Counted from the stretch's first letter, positions 6,245 to 12,598 are shown. The stretch: 64,000 bases of DNA from Thermoanaerobaculia bacterium (GCA_017883235.1 JADGNY010000003.1:1-64000), one strand, 5' to 3'. The notes: generated by a model from the sequence alone, not told the origin. Made by a program: numbers and translations.

Positions 6245-7090
6245 TCATACTCCGGGAGAGCGGGCGGTACCGCGGGCGGCGGTGACGTCCACTTTTCCAC
6301 GGGCGGCGGTGAGGGGCGCGCGGCTACACGGCTGCGCTTCGAAGCGCTCGAACGACGCGGCGACGCGCGCGGCAAAGAGCGGCGAGGCTTGCTCGCGCGC
6401 CATCACTTCGGCCTGCTCGAGCGCGAGGCGCGCCGTCTCTCCGTCGCCGCGCGCCAGGAGGAGGTCGGCGCTCATCCGGTACAGCTCCGGGCCGTAGAAG
6501 AAAGAGCGGCTGCGACCGGCGTTCGCGAACGCTTCATCGAGCGCCTCCAGCGCACCCTCCTGGTCGCCTGCGCGATGGAGGCACTCGGCGAGCACAGCCA
6601 GGAACAGTGGCACTTCCATCCGCGCTCCGGCCAGCACGGATGTACGGATCCCCGCCCGCACCTCGCGCAGCGCCTCTTCGTGCGTTCCTTCCCGCGAAAG
6701 ACACCAACCGAGGAGGATGCGCGCAGGAGAGGTGGAACGGGAGCCGGCGCTCGCGCGCGATTGCCTCCGCGGCGGCGGCGAGACGGCGGCACGGCGCCGC
6801 GTCGAGGTAGTGGAAATGGACGAACGCACCATGAACGAGCGCATGCGCCCGTGCCAGCTCGTCGCCTTTTCGTTTCGGCCAGACCGAGAGCGATGGCGGC
6901 GTGGGCGATGGCATCGTCCTGCCGTCCCAGAAAGACCAGCGCGATCGCCATCCAGCCATGGGCCTGCACCCATCCGGAGGTAGCGATGAGCGCCGGCGCA
7001 AGGCGCAAACGAAAGGCGAGCTCGGCGCGATCGCGGGCGGGCGACGGTCTCGTTTCCGTTAGCAGCAGGTCGAGCGCTTCGGCCAGGTGA
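6245..7090 (-). pseudogene. Frameshifted TPR segment of a regulator/cyclase-type ATPase
   Basis: Three minus-strand frames together give one TPR solenoid. From about 7090 one frame reads HLAEALDLLL...WMAIALVFLGRQDDAIAHAA. It shifts near 6870 into GDELARAHALVHGAFVHFHY. It shifts again near 6720 into ILLGWCLSREGTHEEALREV and GPELYRMSADLLLARGD. The last phrases are typical of the C-terminal TPR region of AfsR/LuxR-type ATPase regulators and adenylate-cyclase-associated ATPases. Two frame changes, no N-terminal ATPase or HTH domain, and direct abutment on a tandem array mark it as a decayed 3' fragment. Confidence 0.7.
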
Positions 7091-7107
7091 CGATGTCGAT
7101 GTCGAGG

Positions 7108-7399
7108 GACGACGATTTCGAATAAAGAATGACGTTTTGTCATCGAGCGATGACGATTCCGAATAGACGAATGACGATTCGTCATCCATCGATGACGATT
7201 TCGAATAAAAAATGACGACATCGATATCGAGCGATGACGATTTCGAATAAAAAATGACGATTCGTCATCGAGCGATGACGATTTCGAATAAAAAATGACG
7301 ACGTCGATATCGAGAGATGACGATTTCGAATGAAAAGATGACGATGTCGTCATCCGTGATGACGATTTCGCATGAAAAATGACGACGTTGACATCGAAA
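7108..7399. repeat. Tandem array, seven copies of a 41-42 bp unit
   Basis: Units start at 7108, 7149, 7191, 7233, 7274, 7316 and 7358, giving steps of 41 or 42 bp. Each begins GATGACGATTTCGAATAAAA or a close variant. The second half alternates between two dyads: the 15-bp palindrome ATGACGATTCGTCAT and TCGATATCGA. The two 21-bp halves of a unit resemble each other, so the array can be read as a 21-bp repeat with a higher-order period. It lies between the decayed TPR gene and an orphan gene. Frames that run through it are by-products of the period, not credible proteins. Confidence 0.9.
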
Positions 7400-7511
7400 A
7401 TGACAACGTCGAGACATCCCCATCCCTCATCGTCGAGCGTCACACCCATACTTGTAACGATCTGTGACCTTTTCCGAGCTGATCCGTCCAACCACATATA
7501 GGAGAAAACTC

Positions 7512-8189
7512 GTGGCAGGCGCAGAGGCGGAACGCTTCATCAGGAACGACGCGCGCAAATCGCGGCGGGCGAAGGTGCGTTCGTGCGCGGCGGAGCGCGA
7601 ACGGCGCCGGTCGTGGATGCGGCCGCTCCACCGCACGTGGCAGGCCATCGATCGCTCGCTCAGACTGATCAATGCATCCACGCGCGTCATCGAGAAGTCG
7701 GAGAAGGAAGCGACGGAGCATCCTCTCCGGGCAGCGCGTCATATGCGCTATGCCGGGGTCCGGCTCGACAAAGCCGTGGGCAATCTGGCTCACGCGGAGT
7801 CGGGTCTGCGCAAAACGCTGGACCACGCCGGGCAATTGCCGGAATTGCCAGTCGACCTGGCTTCGATGCTGCTCGAGGTAGTCATTCTTGTGTATGTGGC
7901 GCATGAAAAGCTGGCCGCGCTCACACCCCGCTTTGACGACACCCTGAACTGGTTGTTCGATTCCGTGGTGCGCGGCCTCATTCTTATCCCTCGCGAGGAG
8001 CAAGCGGCGGCGGTGGCTTTCGTCCGGCGGAAGCCGGCGCCCCGCATTCCGCCCGACCTTCTCTCGCTTCGGAGCCGGATTCCATCCGTTCCTGTTCGTC
8101 AACGGTCCGTTGGCGTGACCGTCGTCGAAGGGGCAAGACGGATCTTCAGAGGCCGTGCTCCTCCGTTCGCCTCAACCTGCTCGCTCTGA
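7512..8189 (+). CDS. Uncharacterised 225-residue protein
   Basis: I do not recognise a family. A GTG start at 7512 follows TAGGAG at good spacing and is preferred over an upstream in-frame codon at 7464 that lacks one. The N-terminus is strongly basic (RNDARKSRRAKVRSCAAERERRR). The middle is helix-forming (RLDKAVGNLAHAESGLRKTL) with one hydrophobic stretch (LASMLLEVVILVYVAHEKLAAL) that could be a membrane or buried helix. The C-terminus is proline- and arginine-rich. It lies 30 bp upstream of a second orphan gene on the same strand and probably shares its transcript. Confidence 0.6.
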   Translation: MAGAEAERFIRNDARKSRRAKVRSCAAERERRRSWMRPLHRTWQAIDRSLRLINASTRVIEKSEKEATEHPLRAARHMRYAGVRLDKAVGNLAHAESGLRKTLDHAGQLPELPVDLASMLLEVVILVYVAHEKLAALTPRFDDTLNWLFDSVVRGLILIPREEQAAAVAFVRRKPAPRIPPDLLSLRSRIPSVPVRQRSVGVTVVEGARRIFRGRAPPFASTCSL

Positions 8190-8219
8190 TCACAGCAGTT
8201 GAGAAAGTGGAGGCTATCC

Positions 8220-8798
8220 GTGTCCCAATCGAATGATGTACCGGTAACACCCTCTCAGCCGTCGTATGCCGATTCCGCACTGGCGTTCGTCGAAGAGCTC
8301 CGCGTCATGAGGCAGAAGGTTCCGAATCTCGTGATCCCGGAGACCAGAGACGCACGCCGCCGTCTGGCGAAGGCCGCGTCGGTTCCTCCGGAGTTTGTCG
8401 AACTGACGTCCATGGCGGTCAAGAATCACGCGCCGCTCGTCAGGGGTGGTCAGGATCTGGCGCAGAACAGCGATCTGAAGAGCTATGCCGAGGCTTACGG
8501 TCCGGTGGCGGATGAGTTGGAGGCGCTGACGACCTTTGTCCGGCACAGCGTCACCAAGGCGCTGAACACGGTCGGAAGTGATGCGCTCACGACCTACGCC
8601 CTGGCACGCCGTCTGTCCAAACGTCCCGAGTCGGCCGAGCTCATTCCTTATGTCGACGCCATGGGCAAGGCGCTCAGCAAACGCATTCGGAAGTCCAAAT
8701 CCAAGCCGGCCCCGGCGCCGGTACCCCCGGCTACCGATCCGACGCAGCCCTCGCCGGTGACGCCATCGTCATCAGCGACCGCTTCGAAGACAAAGTGA
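8220..8798 (+). CDS. Uncharacterised 192-residue protein with Pro/Ala/Ser-rich tail
   Basis: A GTG start at 8220 follows GTGGAGG, which is why it is chosen over the frame opening at 8199. The body (residues 1-150) is predicted helical with no known motif (FVEELRVMRQKVPNLVIPETRDARRRLAKA). The last 35 residues form a low-complexity PAPAPVPPATDPTQPSP-type tail. There is no signal peptide or membrane segment. It is the last gene before a strong intrinsic terminator at 8820 and is likely co-transcribed with the gene at 7512. Function unknown. Confidence 0.65.
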   Translation: MSQSNDVPVTPSQPSYADSALAFVEELRVMRQKVPNLVIPETRDARRRLAKAASVPPEFVELTSMAVKNHAPLVRGGQDLAQNSDLKSYAEAYGPVADELEALTTFVRHSVTKALNTVGSDALTTYALARRLSKRPESAELIPYVDAMGKALSKRIRKSKSKPAPAPVPPATDPTQPSPVTPSSSATASKTK

Positions 8799-8819
8799 CC
8801 GGTCTCGTGCAGTAAGCCC

Positions 8820-8859
8820 GCGCGGGCGCGTCCGAAGGCGCGCCCGCGCATTTGTTTTA
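8820..8859 (+). terminator. Rho-independent terminator
   Basis: A perfect 11-bp stem GCGCGGGCGCG / CGCGCCCGCGC with an 8-nt loop is followed by ATTTGTTTTA. It closes the transcript of the two orphan genes and separates them from the 100-residue gene at 9101. Confidence 0.85.
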
Positions 8860-9100
8860 TGGAAGGCTCACCGTCCACCGACGTAACGATCCCATCCACC
8901 AACTCATAACCAGCGACAGCCTCCGCGTGGGCGAACGGCCGGCAGTCGCCCTGACGGAGTCGCGCCGACTTCCTGATTTACATCGCGGCGCACATGCAGA
9001 AGTGATGCGGAGCACCGCTTCCGGCCCCATTTCTGACGCAGCATGGTTTTGTCCGTCGGACGAGTCGTTCGACGGCCCCTGGCTCTTGAAGGAGGAAGAT

Positions 9101-9403
9101 ATGTCGGACAGCAAACCAATCACGTTAGTTCTCACAGAATGGCAGAAGCGCATGGTCTGTGATCATGTCCCAACTCTGCGGACCACCCCGCCTCGCCAGT
9201 TGACGTTGAGCGCGATCGACCGGCTCAAATTCGTCACGTACAGGCTGCCGCCCTCCGCATCGCTGAACACGGGCGCGTGGAATCTCTACTTGACCGACGC
9301 GCAGATCAAGAAGGTGAGCGCGGCGCTGGGCATCGATGTGAAGATCGCGGCATTGACCATCGCGCCGACCCATGTGAAGTCCGGAGCGATCGCTTTCCGT
9401 TAG
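9101..9403 (+). CDS. 100-residue protein, candidate substrate of the adjacent radical SAM enzyme
   Basis: The ATG at 9101 has a very strong Shine-Dalgarno AAGGAGGAAG, which sets this start against a longer frame opening at 8852. The protein (MSDSKPITLVLTEWQKRMVC...) has one Cys, several Thr/Leu-rich strands and a short tail THVKSGAIAFR. No family is recognised. It stands behind a terminator and a 240-bp leader, and a stable stem-loop (9420-9451) separates it from the radical SAM/SPASM gene 63 bp downstream. That is the usual layout for a highly expressed RiPP precursor followed by its maturase. It could equally be a small partner or recognition protein. Confidence 0.65.
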   Translation: MSDSKPITLVLTEWQKRMVCDHVPTLRTTPPRQLTLSAIDRLKFVTYRLPPSASLNTGAWNLYLTDAQIKKVSAALGIDVKIAALTIAPTHVKSGAIAFR

Positions 9404-9419
9404 CCGGCGACACTGACAG

Positions 9420-9451
9420 CGTGGAGACAGGAATCGCTTTCTGTCTCCACG
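9420..9451 (+). promoter_or_regulatory. Stem-loop between small protein and radical SAM gene
   Basis: A perfect 11-bp stem CGTGGAGACAG / CTGTCTCCACG encloses a 10-nt loop. No U-tract follows, so it is more likely an RNA-stability or attenuation hairpin, keeping the 9101 transcript more abundant than the enzyme message, than a full terminator. Confidence 0.7.
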
Positions 9452-9466
9452 TGGAGCACTCATCAA

Positions 9467-10522
9467 ATGGCCCACGAGTCTGCCGCCTATGCGTTGACCG
9501 GCTGCAATTGGGAGTTGACGCTCGGTTGCACGCTGCATTGCCTGCACTGCGGTTCCAGCGCCGGAAAGGCCAGGCCGAACGAGCTGAGCGTCGACGAATG
9601 TCTCTCGGTGGCCGACGAGCTCGTAGCGTTGGGATGCAAAGACCTCACGTTGATCGGCGGAGAGGTCTTCCGTTTTCGAGGATGGGATCGACTCTCCGCC
9701 TACCTCACCGGCAGCGGCATTGCCGTGAACATCGTGACGAACGGCTACAGGATTGGCGAGGCCGAGATCGAGCAGATCAAACGCGCCAAGGTGGTCAACG
9801 TCGGCGTCTCCATCGACGGCATGGAGGCGAACCACAACCGCATGCGCGGACGACGCGACGCCTTCCAGCACGTGCGAAATACGTTCGACCTGCTGAACCG
9901 CGCTGGAGTTGAGACCGGTGCCGTGACCAGCCTGACGAGGTTCAACTGCGCCGATCTGGAAGACCTCTACGTCCTGTTGTTGGATAAGGGCGTGGGCATC
10001 TGGCAACTGCAATTGGTCGTGGCCATGGGCAACATGGCGAAACGTAGCGACGTCGTCGTCAGCCCGGAGCAGGTGCGCGAGGTCATTGAATTCATCCGGG
10101 ATAAGGCCTGCGAGAGGCGAATGGCCGTCATCGCCGCCGACAGCATCGGCTATTTCGACGACAACGAGTCGTACATCAGGGGGAATTCGTCTCCGATCTG
10201 CTTCTGGGGCGGCTGTGGCGCCGGAACGTCGAGCGTCTTCATCGACAGCGTCGGCAACGTGAAGGGATGCGGCGCGCTCTATTCCGATGTCTTCATCGAG
10301 GGCAATGTCCGCGAACGATCGCTAACGGACATCTGGAATGCCCCGGACGGTTTCGCCTACAACAGAAAGTTCACGACCGATCTGCTGTCCGGGGTGTGTC
10401 AGGGATGTACCGTCGGCGAGGCCTGCAGGGGTGGTTGCCGGTCGGCGAATTACTTTTCGACCGGTTCCCTCTACTCGGGTGCCTTCTGCTGCCGGCCGAG
10501 GCGCACGCGCCCGCAACCGTGA
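9467..10522 (+). CDS. Radical SAM/SPASM domain protein
   Basis: This is a 351-residue enzyme. The CxxxCxxC motif for the SAM [4Fe-4S] cluster is C21-TLH-C25-LH-C28. LIGGEVFRF replaces the usual GGEPL motif that binds the SAM amino group. The C-terminal 150 residues carry a SPASM-type Cys set (ICFWGGCGAG, GNVKGCGALY, CQGCTVGEACRGGCRSANY, AFCCRP) that would bind auxiliary clusters, together with the usual EGNVRERSLTDIWN. Enzymes of this architecture modify peptides (thioether, C-C or cyclophane links) or act as sulfatase-type maturases. No sulfatase is near, so the 100-residue protein at 9101 is the natural candidate substrate. The product is unknown. Confidence 0.9.
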   Translation: MAHESAAYALTGCNWELTLGCTLHCLHCGSSAGKARPNELSVDECLSVADELVALGCKDLTLIGGEVFRFRGWDRLSAYLTGSGIAVNIVTNGYRIGEAEIEQIKRAKVVNVGVSIDGMEANHNRMRGRRDAFQHVRNTFDLLNRAGVETGAVTSLTRFNCADLEDLYVLLLDKGVGIWQLQLVVAMGNMAKRSDVVVSPEQVREVIEFIRDKACERRMAVIAADSIGYFDDNESYIRGNSSPICFWGGCGAGTSSVFIDSVGNVKGCGALYSDVFIEGNVRERSLTDIWNAPDGFAYNRKFTTDLLSGVCQGCTVGEACRGGCRSANYFSTGSLYSGAFCCRPRRTRPQP

Positions 10523-10585
10523 CGGCGAGATTGCTTCGAGCGGGTTGCGGCCTCCGTCCCGGTTCGACATACACTCTCGCCCGCC

Positions 10586-12598
10586 ATGACTTTGCGCCGA
10601 TTCCGTCTCTCTTCTCTGATCGCATCGCTGTCCATCTTTGCCTTCGCGACGCTGCCTGCTCAATCGGTCAGGAATCCTTCGCCGCCGCAGCCAGTGCCCA
10701 TGCCGCCGCCGATCGCCGCTCCGGTGGATCAGCCCTATGCCGGGCCGGTGCAGCTCAAGGTCGATCTGACTAACGTCAGGGATCGCGTGGCGCATGTGCG
10801 CGAGGAGATTCCCGTCCCCCCCAACGCAAAGGAGCTCGTGCTGCTGTATCCGCAATGGATCCCGGGCAGCCACTCCCCGGGCGGTCCGATCTCGCGCCTC
10901 GCCGGAATCGTCACCAGTGTCGACGGAAAGCGCGTGCAGTGGATTCGCGACCCGATCAACGTGTACGCCTTCCACGTTCCGCTGGGCGCGGCCGCCAGGA
11001 CCGTATCGCTTCAGTTCGACTACCTGTCGCCCGTCAAGCCGGCGGAAGGCCGAATCGAACGGTCCGACGCCATCGTCGATCTTCAATGGAACGAAGTGGT
11101 CATGTATCCCGCGGGATTCTTTTCGCGCGACATTCCATTCGACGTCACGCTCAACGTCCCGCAAGGCTGGAAATACGCGACGGCGTTGGAGACGGCGTCG
11201 GAGGAAGGCTCCACGCTGAAGTTCAAAAGGACGACCCTGAACACGCTGGTGGATTCGCCGCTTTATGCCGGCATCCATTTCAAGCAGGTCGACCTTTCGC
11301 CCTCGCCGGCCGACACCGTTCGCCTGAACGTGTTCGCCGACGATGAAAAAGATCTCGCCATCTCCGCGGACGCCGTCGAAAAGCACAAGAACCTCGCCAT
11401 CGAGGCCGATAAGTTGTTTCAGTCGCATCACTACGGCCACTACGATTTCCTGCTGCTGCTCAGCAGCACCGTCGGTGGCATAGGACTGGAGCACCATCAG
11501 TCGAGCGAAGACGGCGCGCGTCCGAACTACTTCACAGAGTGGGACCGCGGCGGTCTGCGCAGCGATCTGCTGCCGCACGAATACACGCATTCGTGGAACG
11601 GTAAGTTCCGCCGTCCGGCCGGCCTGTGGACTCCCAATTTCAACGTGGCCATGCGCGACGATCTGCTTTGGATCTACGAGGGCCTGACACAGTACTGGGG
11701 AAGCGTGCTCGCGGCGCGCTCCGGAATCCGGACGCCGGAGCAGGGGCGATATGCGTTTGCGCGGGTGGCTGCGGGATTCGCAGTCAGCCCAGGCCGCGAT
11801 TGGCGTCCGCTGGTCGACACCACCAACCAGCCCACGGTCTCACAACGCCGTCCAGTGAGCTGGGTGAGCTGGCAACGTCCCGAAGACTACTACACCGAAG
11901 GAGCGTTGATCTGGCTGGACGCCGATACGAAGATCCGCGAAGTCACCAACGACCGGAAATCGCTCGACGACTTCGCGGCGGAGTTCTTCAGCCCGTACAA
12001 CGGCAGTTTCGTCACGGACACGTACAATCTCAGTGACATCGTCGACGCCCTGAACAGGATTGCGCCGTATGAGTGGATGAAATTCTTCCAGGAGCGCGTC
12101 TATGCACTGCATCCCGCCGTGCCGGCGGATGGAATCACCCGAGGCGGCTACAGACTCGTTTACAGCGACAAGATGCCTTCGTGGTTGACCAGAGCGGAAA
12201 CGCCCGCCACCGGAGCCGATTTCTCAACCTCACTCGGTTTTTCGGTCGGCGGTTCACGGGCAGGTGCAGCGGAACCGCCGGCGGGCCGGGAATCCAATGA
12301 CCTCGGGAACGTCTGGTGGAACAGTCCAGCGTTCAACGCAGGCATCACGCCCGATATGCAGATCATCTCGGTCAACGGGAAAGCGTACACGGCGAAGGTT
12401 CTGCGCGATGCCATCATGGAAGCCGAACGCACGAAGCAGCCGCTCGAGTTGCAGTTCCGCCGCGGAGAAGAATACAAGTCATTTTCAATCCCGTATTACG
12501 GCGGCCTGCGCGTCCCGTCCCTGGAGCGCGTCGACGGCACGCCCGACCGTCTCGACGAAATCCTCGCGCCCAGCAAACGCCCGCTGCCGGCAATGTAG
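10586..12598 (+). CDS. M61 family (glycyl aminopeptidase-type) metallopeptidase with PDZ domain
   Basis: This is a 670-residue protein. An N-terminal signal peptide (SSLIASLSIFAFATLPAQS) predicts export. The zinc site is HEYTH at 331-335, with the third ligand Glu365 in WIYEGLTQYWG. A PDZ domain (about 540-640, GVxPDMQIISVNGK type) ends the protein, as usual in the M61 family. The length is normal. It starts 64 bp after the radical SAM gene on the same strand. It may be a general periplasmic peptidase, or it may trim a modified peptide made by its neighbours; only the context suggests the second. The stop codon is followed at once by a dispersed 51-bp repeat. Confidence 0.93.
   Translation: MTLRRFRLSSLIASLSIFAFATLPAQSVRNPSPPQPVPMPPPIAAPVDQPYAGPVQLKVDLTNVRDRVAHVREEIPVPPNAKELVLLYPQWIPGSHSPGGPISRLAGIVTSVDGKRVQWIRDPINVYAFHVPLGAAARTVSLQFDYLSPVKPAEGRIERSDAIVDLQWNEVVMYPAGFFSRDIPFDVTLNVPQGWKYATALETASEEGSTLKFKRTTLNTLVDSPLYAGIHFKQVDLSPSPADTVRLNVFADDEKDLAISADAVEKHKNLAIEADKLFQSHHYGHYDFLLLLSSTVGGIGLEHHQSSEDGARPNYFTEWDRGGLRSDLLPHEYTHSWNGKFRRPAGLWTPNFNVAMRDDLLWIYEGLTQYWGSVLAARSGIRTPEQGRYAFARVAAGFAVSPGRDWRPLVDTTNQPTVSQRRPVSWVSWQRPEDYYTEGALIWLDADTKIREVTNDRKSLDDFAAEFFSPYNGSFVTDTYNLSDIVDALNRIAPYEWMKFFQERVYALHPAVPADGITRGGYRLVYSDKMPSWLTRAETPATGADFSTSLGFSVGGSRAGAAEPPAGRESNDLGNVWWNSPAFNAGITPDMQIISVNGKAYTAKVLRDAIMEAERTKQPLELQFRRGEEYKSFSIPYYGGLRVPSLERVDGTPDRLDEILAPSKRPLPAM

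Follow-up and report, generated by a model that had tools for sequence, protein, structure and literature searches.

Radical SAM enzymes that mature RiPPs act mostly on short, exposed cores, and their clusters commonly, though not obligatorily, contain a conserved protease or exporter. Some of these enzymes are served by accessory proteins, as MftC is by MftB and PlpX by PlpY, and PlpX itself we take to be a member of TIGR04103. PlpX is a radical SAM splicease that excises tyramine (-135.08 Da) at XYG (PMC10533398), and MftC acts on Tyr (PMC9062424). Here we describe a locus from a window of 64,000 nucleotides (the whole stretch of DNA that was analyzed), which a first-pass annotation had read as a possible cluster of precursor, maturase and protease in the order small ORF, stem-loop, radical SAM/SPASM enzyme and M61 peptidase. 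Every one of these elements lies where it had been placed (Table 1), and small gene and enzyme gene proved to be a conserved pair among RiPP maturases, but the peptidase does not belong with them.

Table 1. Features of the locus and of its upstream flank, in window coordinates.
Feature	Coordinates	Strand	Remarks
Tandem-repeat ORFs (short peptide units IRNRHRSM, FYSKSSSLDD)	6245-7497	-	just upstream of the multi-copy unit
Multi-copy unit	7464-8853		two adjacent ORFs (241 aa, 192 aa) and a terminator-like hairpin
Terminator-like hairpin	8820-8849		assigned to the gene upstream of the small gene
Shine-Dalgarno AAGGAGG of the small gene	9089-9095	+	5 nt before the ATG
Gene for the 100-aa partner protein	9101-9403	+	ORF; homologs in G126, G111 and G390
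Perfect 11-bp stem with 9-nt loop, between small gene and enzyme gene	9420-9450	+	arms CGTGGAGACAG (9420-9430) and CTGTCTCCACG (9440-9450), 11 perfect pairs
Radical SAM/SPASM enzyme, 351 aa	9467-10522	+	Radical_SAM and SPASM domains
M61 peptidase, apparent signal peptide	10586-12598	+	judged a neighbor, outside the unit

Organization of the locus

The ribosome binding site claimed for the small gene is indeed present, and its three homologs (3/3) have purine-rich sites of the GGAGG/GGAG type. The unit does not begin at position 8820, as had been proposed, since a terminator-like hairpin that goes with the preceding gene lies there, outside the unit. Neither ORF of that upstream unit belongs to a Pfam or NCBIfam family. 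The unit has about eight more dispersed matches (67-73% identical) in the window genome and more than 10 in the sister species G002, some of them at contig ends; eight copies were read, one of them the window's, and in each the GC-rich 30-bp hairpin is almost unchanged, while several copies adjoin ORFs of low-complexity peptide repeats.

The perfect 11-bp stem-loop between the small gene and the enzyme gene is also present as described. Its arms were taken from the sequence together with a computed fold of the intergenic RNA, in which A-U and G-U pairs lengthen the stem to 15 pairs. This fold is stronger than expected by chance, as none of 200 shuffles was as good (-25.9 kcal/mol, where shuffled sequences average -16.0; z -3.56). 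The stem-loop has no T-run, and terminator scoring makes no call on it. At the G111 locus the intergenic fold is weaker than that of the window (z -2.26), and the hairpin is absent in G390 (z +1.25) and in G126, where the gap between the genes measures 13 nt. A conserved regulatory hairpin was therefore rejected, and the suggestion that the hairpin is a general expression device fails at two of the four loci (G390 and G126).

The small gene and the enzyme gene form a conserved two-gene unit

The pair is present in four distantly related genomes: those of the window, G126 and G111, which represent one class and three families, and that of G390, from another class of the same phylum. At all four loci the small gene lies on the same strand as the enzyme gene, 13-92 nt upstream of it. 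The four enzymes are 50-63% identical to one another and the other three 50-60% identical to the window's, the window enzyme being closest to that of G390 (59.7%, other class) and 50.0% identical to that of G111 from its own class. When 149 genomes of the window's class were searched with a profile of the small protein, three carriers were recovered (the window genome, G126 and G111), and a single-sequence search with the enzyme in 148 of the same 149 genomes returned clade enzymes from these same carriers. Among 142 genomes of G390's class, G390 alone has the small gene. An enzyme profile run against a phylum sample of 396 genomes scored G390 at 600 bits and the window at 592, well ahead of the next best sequence at 319, and both clade enzymes of this sample have the small gene. 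A second phylum sample, largely overlapping the first, yielded no new pair, and a search of plasmids and viral contigs found no copy of the small gene.

Across about 600 genomes, by a rough count, neither gene was found alone. The first-pass annotation had named as a refutation of its reading an enzyme that is common in genomes lacking the small gene, or that stands next to sulfatases, and neither was observed: four of four clade enzymes have the small gene, and no sulfatase was seen beside the pair at the four loci, whose neighbors were judged largely by eye. Joint conservation of a small gene and a modifying enzyme, as expected of a RiPP pair, is found at 4/4 loci. We conclude that the small gene and the enzyme gene are a conserved two-gene unit. 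The small number of carriers, together with the finding that the closest relative of the window enzyme resides in another class, suggests that the pair may have spread horizontally or been lost repeatedly.

The surroundings of the pair include a convergent gamma-glutamyltransferase-like gene in G126; in G111 a patatin-like ORF stands farther downstream, and G390 has an MBL-fold-like ORF, both of these identified by eye. When all ORFs within 6 kb of the four pairs were compared with one another, no third gene proved to be shared, nor did we find, within the same distance, a recurring hidden Y[G/A] peptide ORF; no conserved protease, transporter or recognition domain accompanies the four pairs. 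It is very improbable that the two genes are adjacent without a functional connection and that the enzyme has a small-molecule substrate: such an accident is easier to imagine with only four loci known, but adjacency has been kept in four genomes, four families and two classes amid unrelated surroundings, and the sole similarity between the flanks of different loci is one 28-residue match (E 0.002).

The M61 peptidase is a chance neighbor

The peptidase has an M61 catalytic domain (2.1e-32) and an M61 N-terminal domain (2.8e-30), and its gene follows the enzyme gene after 63 nt. This short gap and the gene order speak for a full three-gene cluster in which the M61 enzyme is the leader protease of the precursor and its maturase, a reading to which we nevertheless give almost no credence. 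No M61 peptidase lies beside the pairs of G126, G111 and G390, and G002, which lacks the pair, has an M61 ortholog that is 82% identical; the DNA homology between the window and G002 begins at window position 10560, just before the peptidase ATG. M61 peptidases of this type occur in 9 of the 21 genomes searched (the window's own and near relatives), only one of which has the pair. On the context at the other loci and in G002 we reject M61 as the protease of the pathway, the processing role first assigned to it, and regard the peptidase as a chance neighbor outside the unit.

The enzyme is a relative of RiPP maturases found beside Tyr-Gly/Ala peptides

The enzyme contains Radical_SAM (1.1e-20) and SPASM (5.3e-8) domains and no additional Pfam domain above the cut-off. 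Its CX3CX2C triad is formed by C21, C25 and C28, and the SPASM cysteines expected of a family member are present. The GGEVF motif, previously noted as a variant of GGEPL, does occur in the enzyme but is not diagnostic; GGE[V/M][F/R] is usual across its clade. The best named model is TIGR04103 (237.1 bits, cut-off 725) and the second best TIGR03913 (222.4 bits, cut-off 591.75); because these scores fall far below the cut-offs, the enzyme is a relative, and not a member, of both groups of maturases. The models for the mycofactocin maturase (TIGR03962; 137.9 bits, cut-off 265) and for sulfatase-maturating enzymes (TIGR03942; 78 bits, cut-off 349.45) also score below threshold.

In a maximum-likelihood tree of 26 enzymes, those of the four loci form one clade (support 100/99), which groups with three clostridial enzymes (84/96). 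These clostridial enzymes (L028-L030), at 42-44% identity the nearest outside the clade, directly follow proteins with repeated VYAGPEYF-like motifs. The repeat proteins themselves, of Clostridial/Lachnospiraceae type (L028:5408-6007, L029:25-750 and L030:5023-5844), have zinc-ribbon-like C-terminal cysteines, and searching an open-access library for the motif retrieved no paper on them.

On the surrounding branches of the tree, the enzymes are flanked by Tyr-Gly/Ala peptides. A Nostoc Nif11 peptide ending in ALYGLPPELF adjoins an enzyme assigned to the TIGR04103 type by its record annotation, DUF1843 peptides beside related enzymes carry YG, YA or YM near the N-terminus, and peptides bearing three YG sites apiece lie immediately downstream of the enzymes in two genomes of the same phylum (G162 and G187). 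The enzyme's position among splicease-like, GDL and YAGP-repeat relatives makes tyrosine the most likely target, by analogy.

The G162 and G187 loci (L079:1474-3236 and L080:1477-3190) are candidate spliceotide systems in their own right, with the sites LRYGVILPAP, PMYGVALPP, MRYGISIPP; LVYGLISPSG, LKYGITPAAEP, MKYGVLPHG. At Zixibacteria-type loci (L031-L034), two SPASM enzymes stand side by side, one related to the window's and the other Clo7bot-like, together with an ABC transporter-like ORF. DUF1842 is a companion of related enzymes in Chromobacterium; a search for it in 61 relatives gave no match, but the control likewise matched nowhere, so that this absence carries no weight.

The partner protein is conserved along its length and predicted to be folded

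Searches of Pfam (E up to 10), NCBIfam, PHROGs and PADLOC returned nothing for the small protein, and PDB sequences gave no meaningful match either, in agreement with the earlier impression that it belongs to no known family; an alignment to the DUF1843 profile received an hhalign probability of 0.5%. The partners of the four loci are 27-39% identical, and invariant in all of them are W14-Q15-K16-R17, Y47, Y63-L-T-D and Q68, so that two tyrosines are invariant, Y47 within [S/T]Y[K/R] and Y63 within YLTD. The dipeptides YG and YA are missing from all four. Residues 11-17 and 64-70 are copies of an internal repeat, L-T-x-x-Q-x-K/R, whose first copy has L-A and whose second ends in N in the G390 partner. 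In the four-row alignment, conservation is spread over the whole length with no division into leader and core, and the C-terminal GAI is missing in G390.

A first structural model of the partner was poor (pLDDT 59.9) and its structural matches were meaningless. The G126-led model (pLDDT 76.2, pTM 0.67) is a compact alpha/beta structure in which each copy of the repeat is predicted to open a helix after a strand. It matched neither PDB structures (best E 2.6; every Z below 2) nor viral structures, but a new fold cannot be claimed, because the alignment behind the model has four rows only.

W14-Q15-K16-R17, near the N-terminus, ranks among the two longest runs of invariant residues in the partner, and the enzyme might accordingly join the Trp and Lys/Arg side chains of W-Q-K-R, as other systems that cross-link side chains do, leaving tyrosine untouched. 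We consider this quite unlikely, since the enzyme matches the WgkB model weakly (73 bits, cut-off 650) and groups in the tree with Tyr-core systems, and since the repeat suggests a structural role at the start of the two predicted helices.

Discussion

On balance, and with modest confidence, we favor a two-gene RiPP-like unit in which the radical SAM/SPASM enzyme modifies a folded substrate protein, about 100 residues long, whose gene lies immediately upstream of its own, with tyrosine as the likeliest target. Every genome in which one of the two genes was found has the other as well, so the small protein is probably the substrate. Judging from its relatives, the enzyme would direct a 5'-deoxyadenosyl radical at a tyrosine of the partner, Y47 or Y63, and the outcome could be excision, cross-linking or another Tyr-derived change. 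Against a substrate modified at tyrosine stand the want of YG or YA and the compact predicted structure, as cores are usually short and exposed; conservation along the entire partner, with no leader/core split and with GAI lost in G390, also argues against a substrate, as does the fact that only four pairs are known, with no transporter, recognition domain or protease conserved beside them.

The main rival, which we regard as possible but doubtful, makes the partner an obligate accessory, a chaperone or recognition protein, and places the gene for the true substrate elsewhere in the genome. It would suit a partner that is predicted to be folded and is conserved along its length, as well as an enzyme whose Pfam domains include no obvious recognition domain, and mycofactocin systems have a separate protein of this sort between precursor and enzyme. 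However, no second conserved small gene lies within 6 kb of any pair, the partner model matches no PDB fold, solved recognition domains included, and the nearest relatives examined have a small gene of peptide-substrate type directly upstream of the enzyme.

A bolder form of this preferred reading, which strikes us as rather unlikely, is that a splicease-like branch moved from short X-Tyr-Gly cores to a dedicated folded protein of 100 residues with an unmatched fold, and that the enzyme acts there at an invariant non-YG tyrosine, leaving a functional protein with a Tyr-derived group and releasing no peptide. If the partner is the substrate, the two would constitute a clear enzyme/substrate pair outside the known substrate families. 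It would show whether Tyr-directed radical SAM chemistry reaches past the X-Tyr-Gly rule and onto folded proteins, and the YAGP-repeat systems would gain a point of comparison.

Comparison with known systems

The anaerobic sulfatase-maturating enzyme (TIGR03942) shares the SPASM domain with the window enzyme, beside which no sulfatase was found. Mycofactocin MftC (TIGR03962) is likewise a compact SPASM enzyme, with a small-peptide substrate and tyrosine chemistry, whereas the window enzyme is distant from it in the tree, and the locus has neither MftA/MftB neighbors nor a C-terminal Val-Tyr.

In PlpX-type spliceases (nif11-class radical SAM maturase 3, TIGR04103), a SPASM enzyme lies directly downstream of a small gene, as it does here, but the window enzyme belongs to a separate clade, its partner has no Nif11 leader and no XYG site, and the pair has no conserved downstream gene in the place of PlpY. 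GDL-motif maturases (TIGR03913) also have their small genes, which encode DUF1843 peptides, directly upstream; unlike them, the window enzyme has no C-terminal extension, and its partner does not resemble DUF1843 (no Pfam match). The window genome (G000) has, in addition, a true GDL-type maturase on contig C56 (L037:9462-10883; 641 bits, above the TIGR03913 cut-off), upstream of which lies a 56-aa DUF1843-like ORF (MGFTTLYAPSIRDAI..., L037:9240-9410). In the Clostridial/Lachnospiraceae VYAGPEYF systems, the neighboring protein, with its multiple repeats and zinc-ribbon-like end, is unrelated to the window partner, but the enzymes share a FIEGN...FAYNR signature with those of the four-locus clade.
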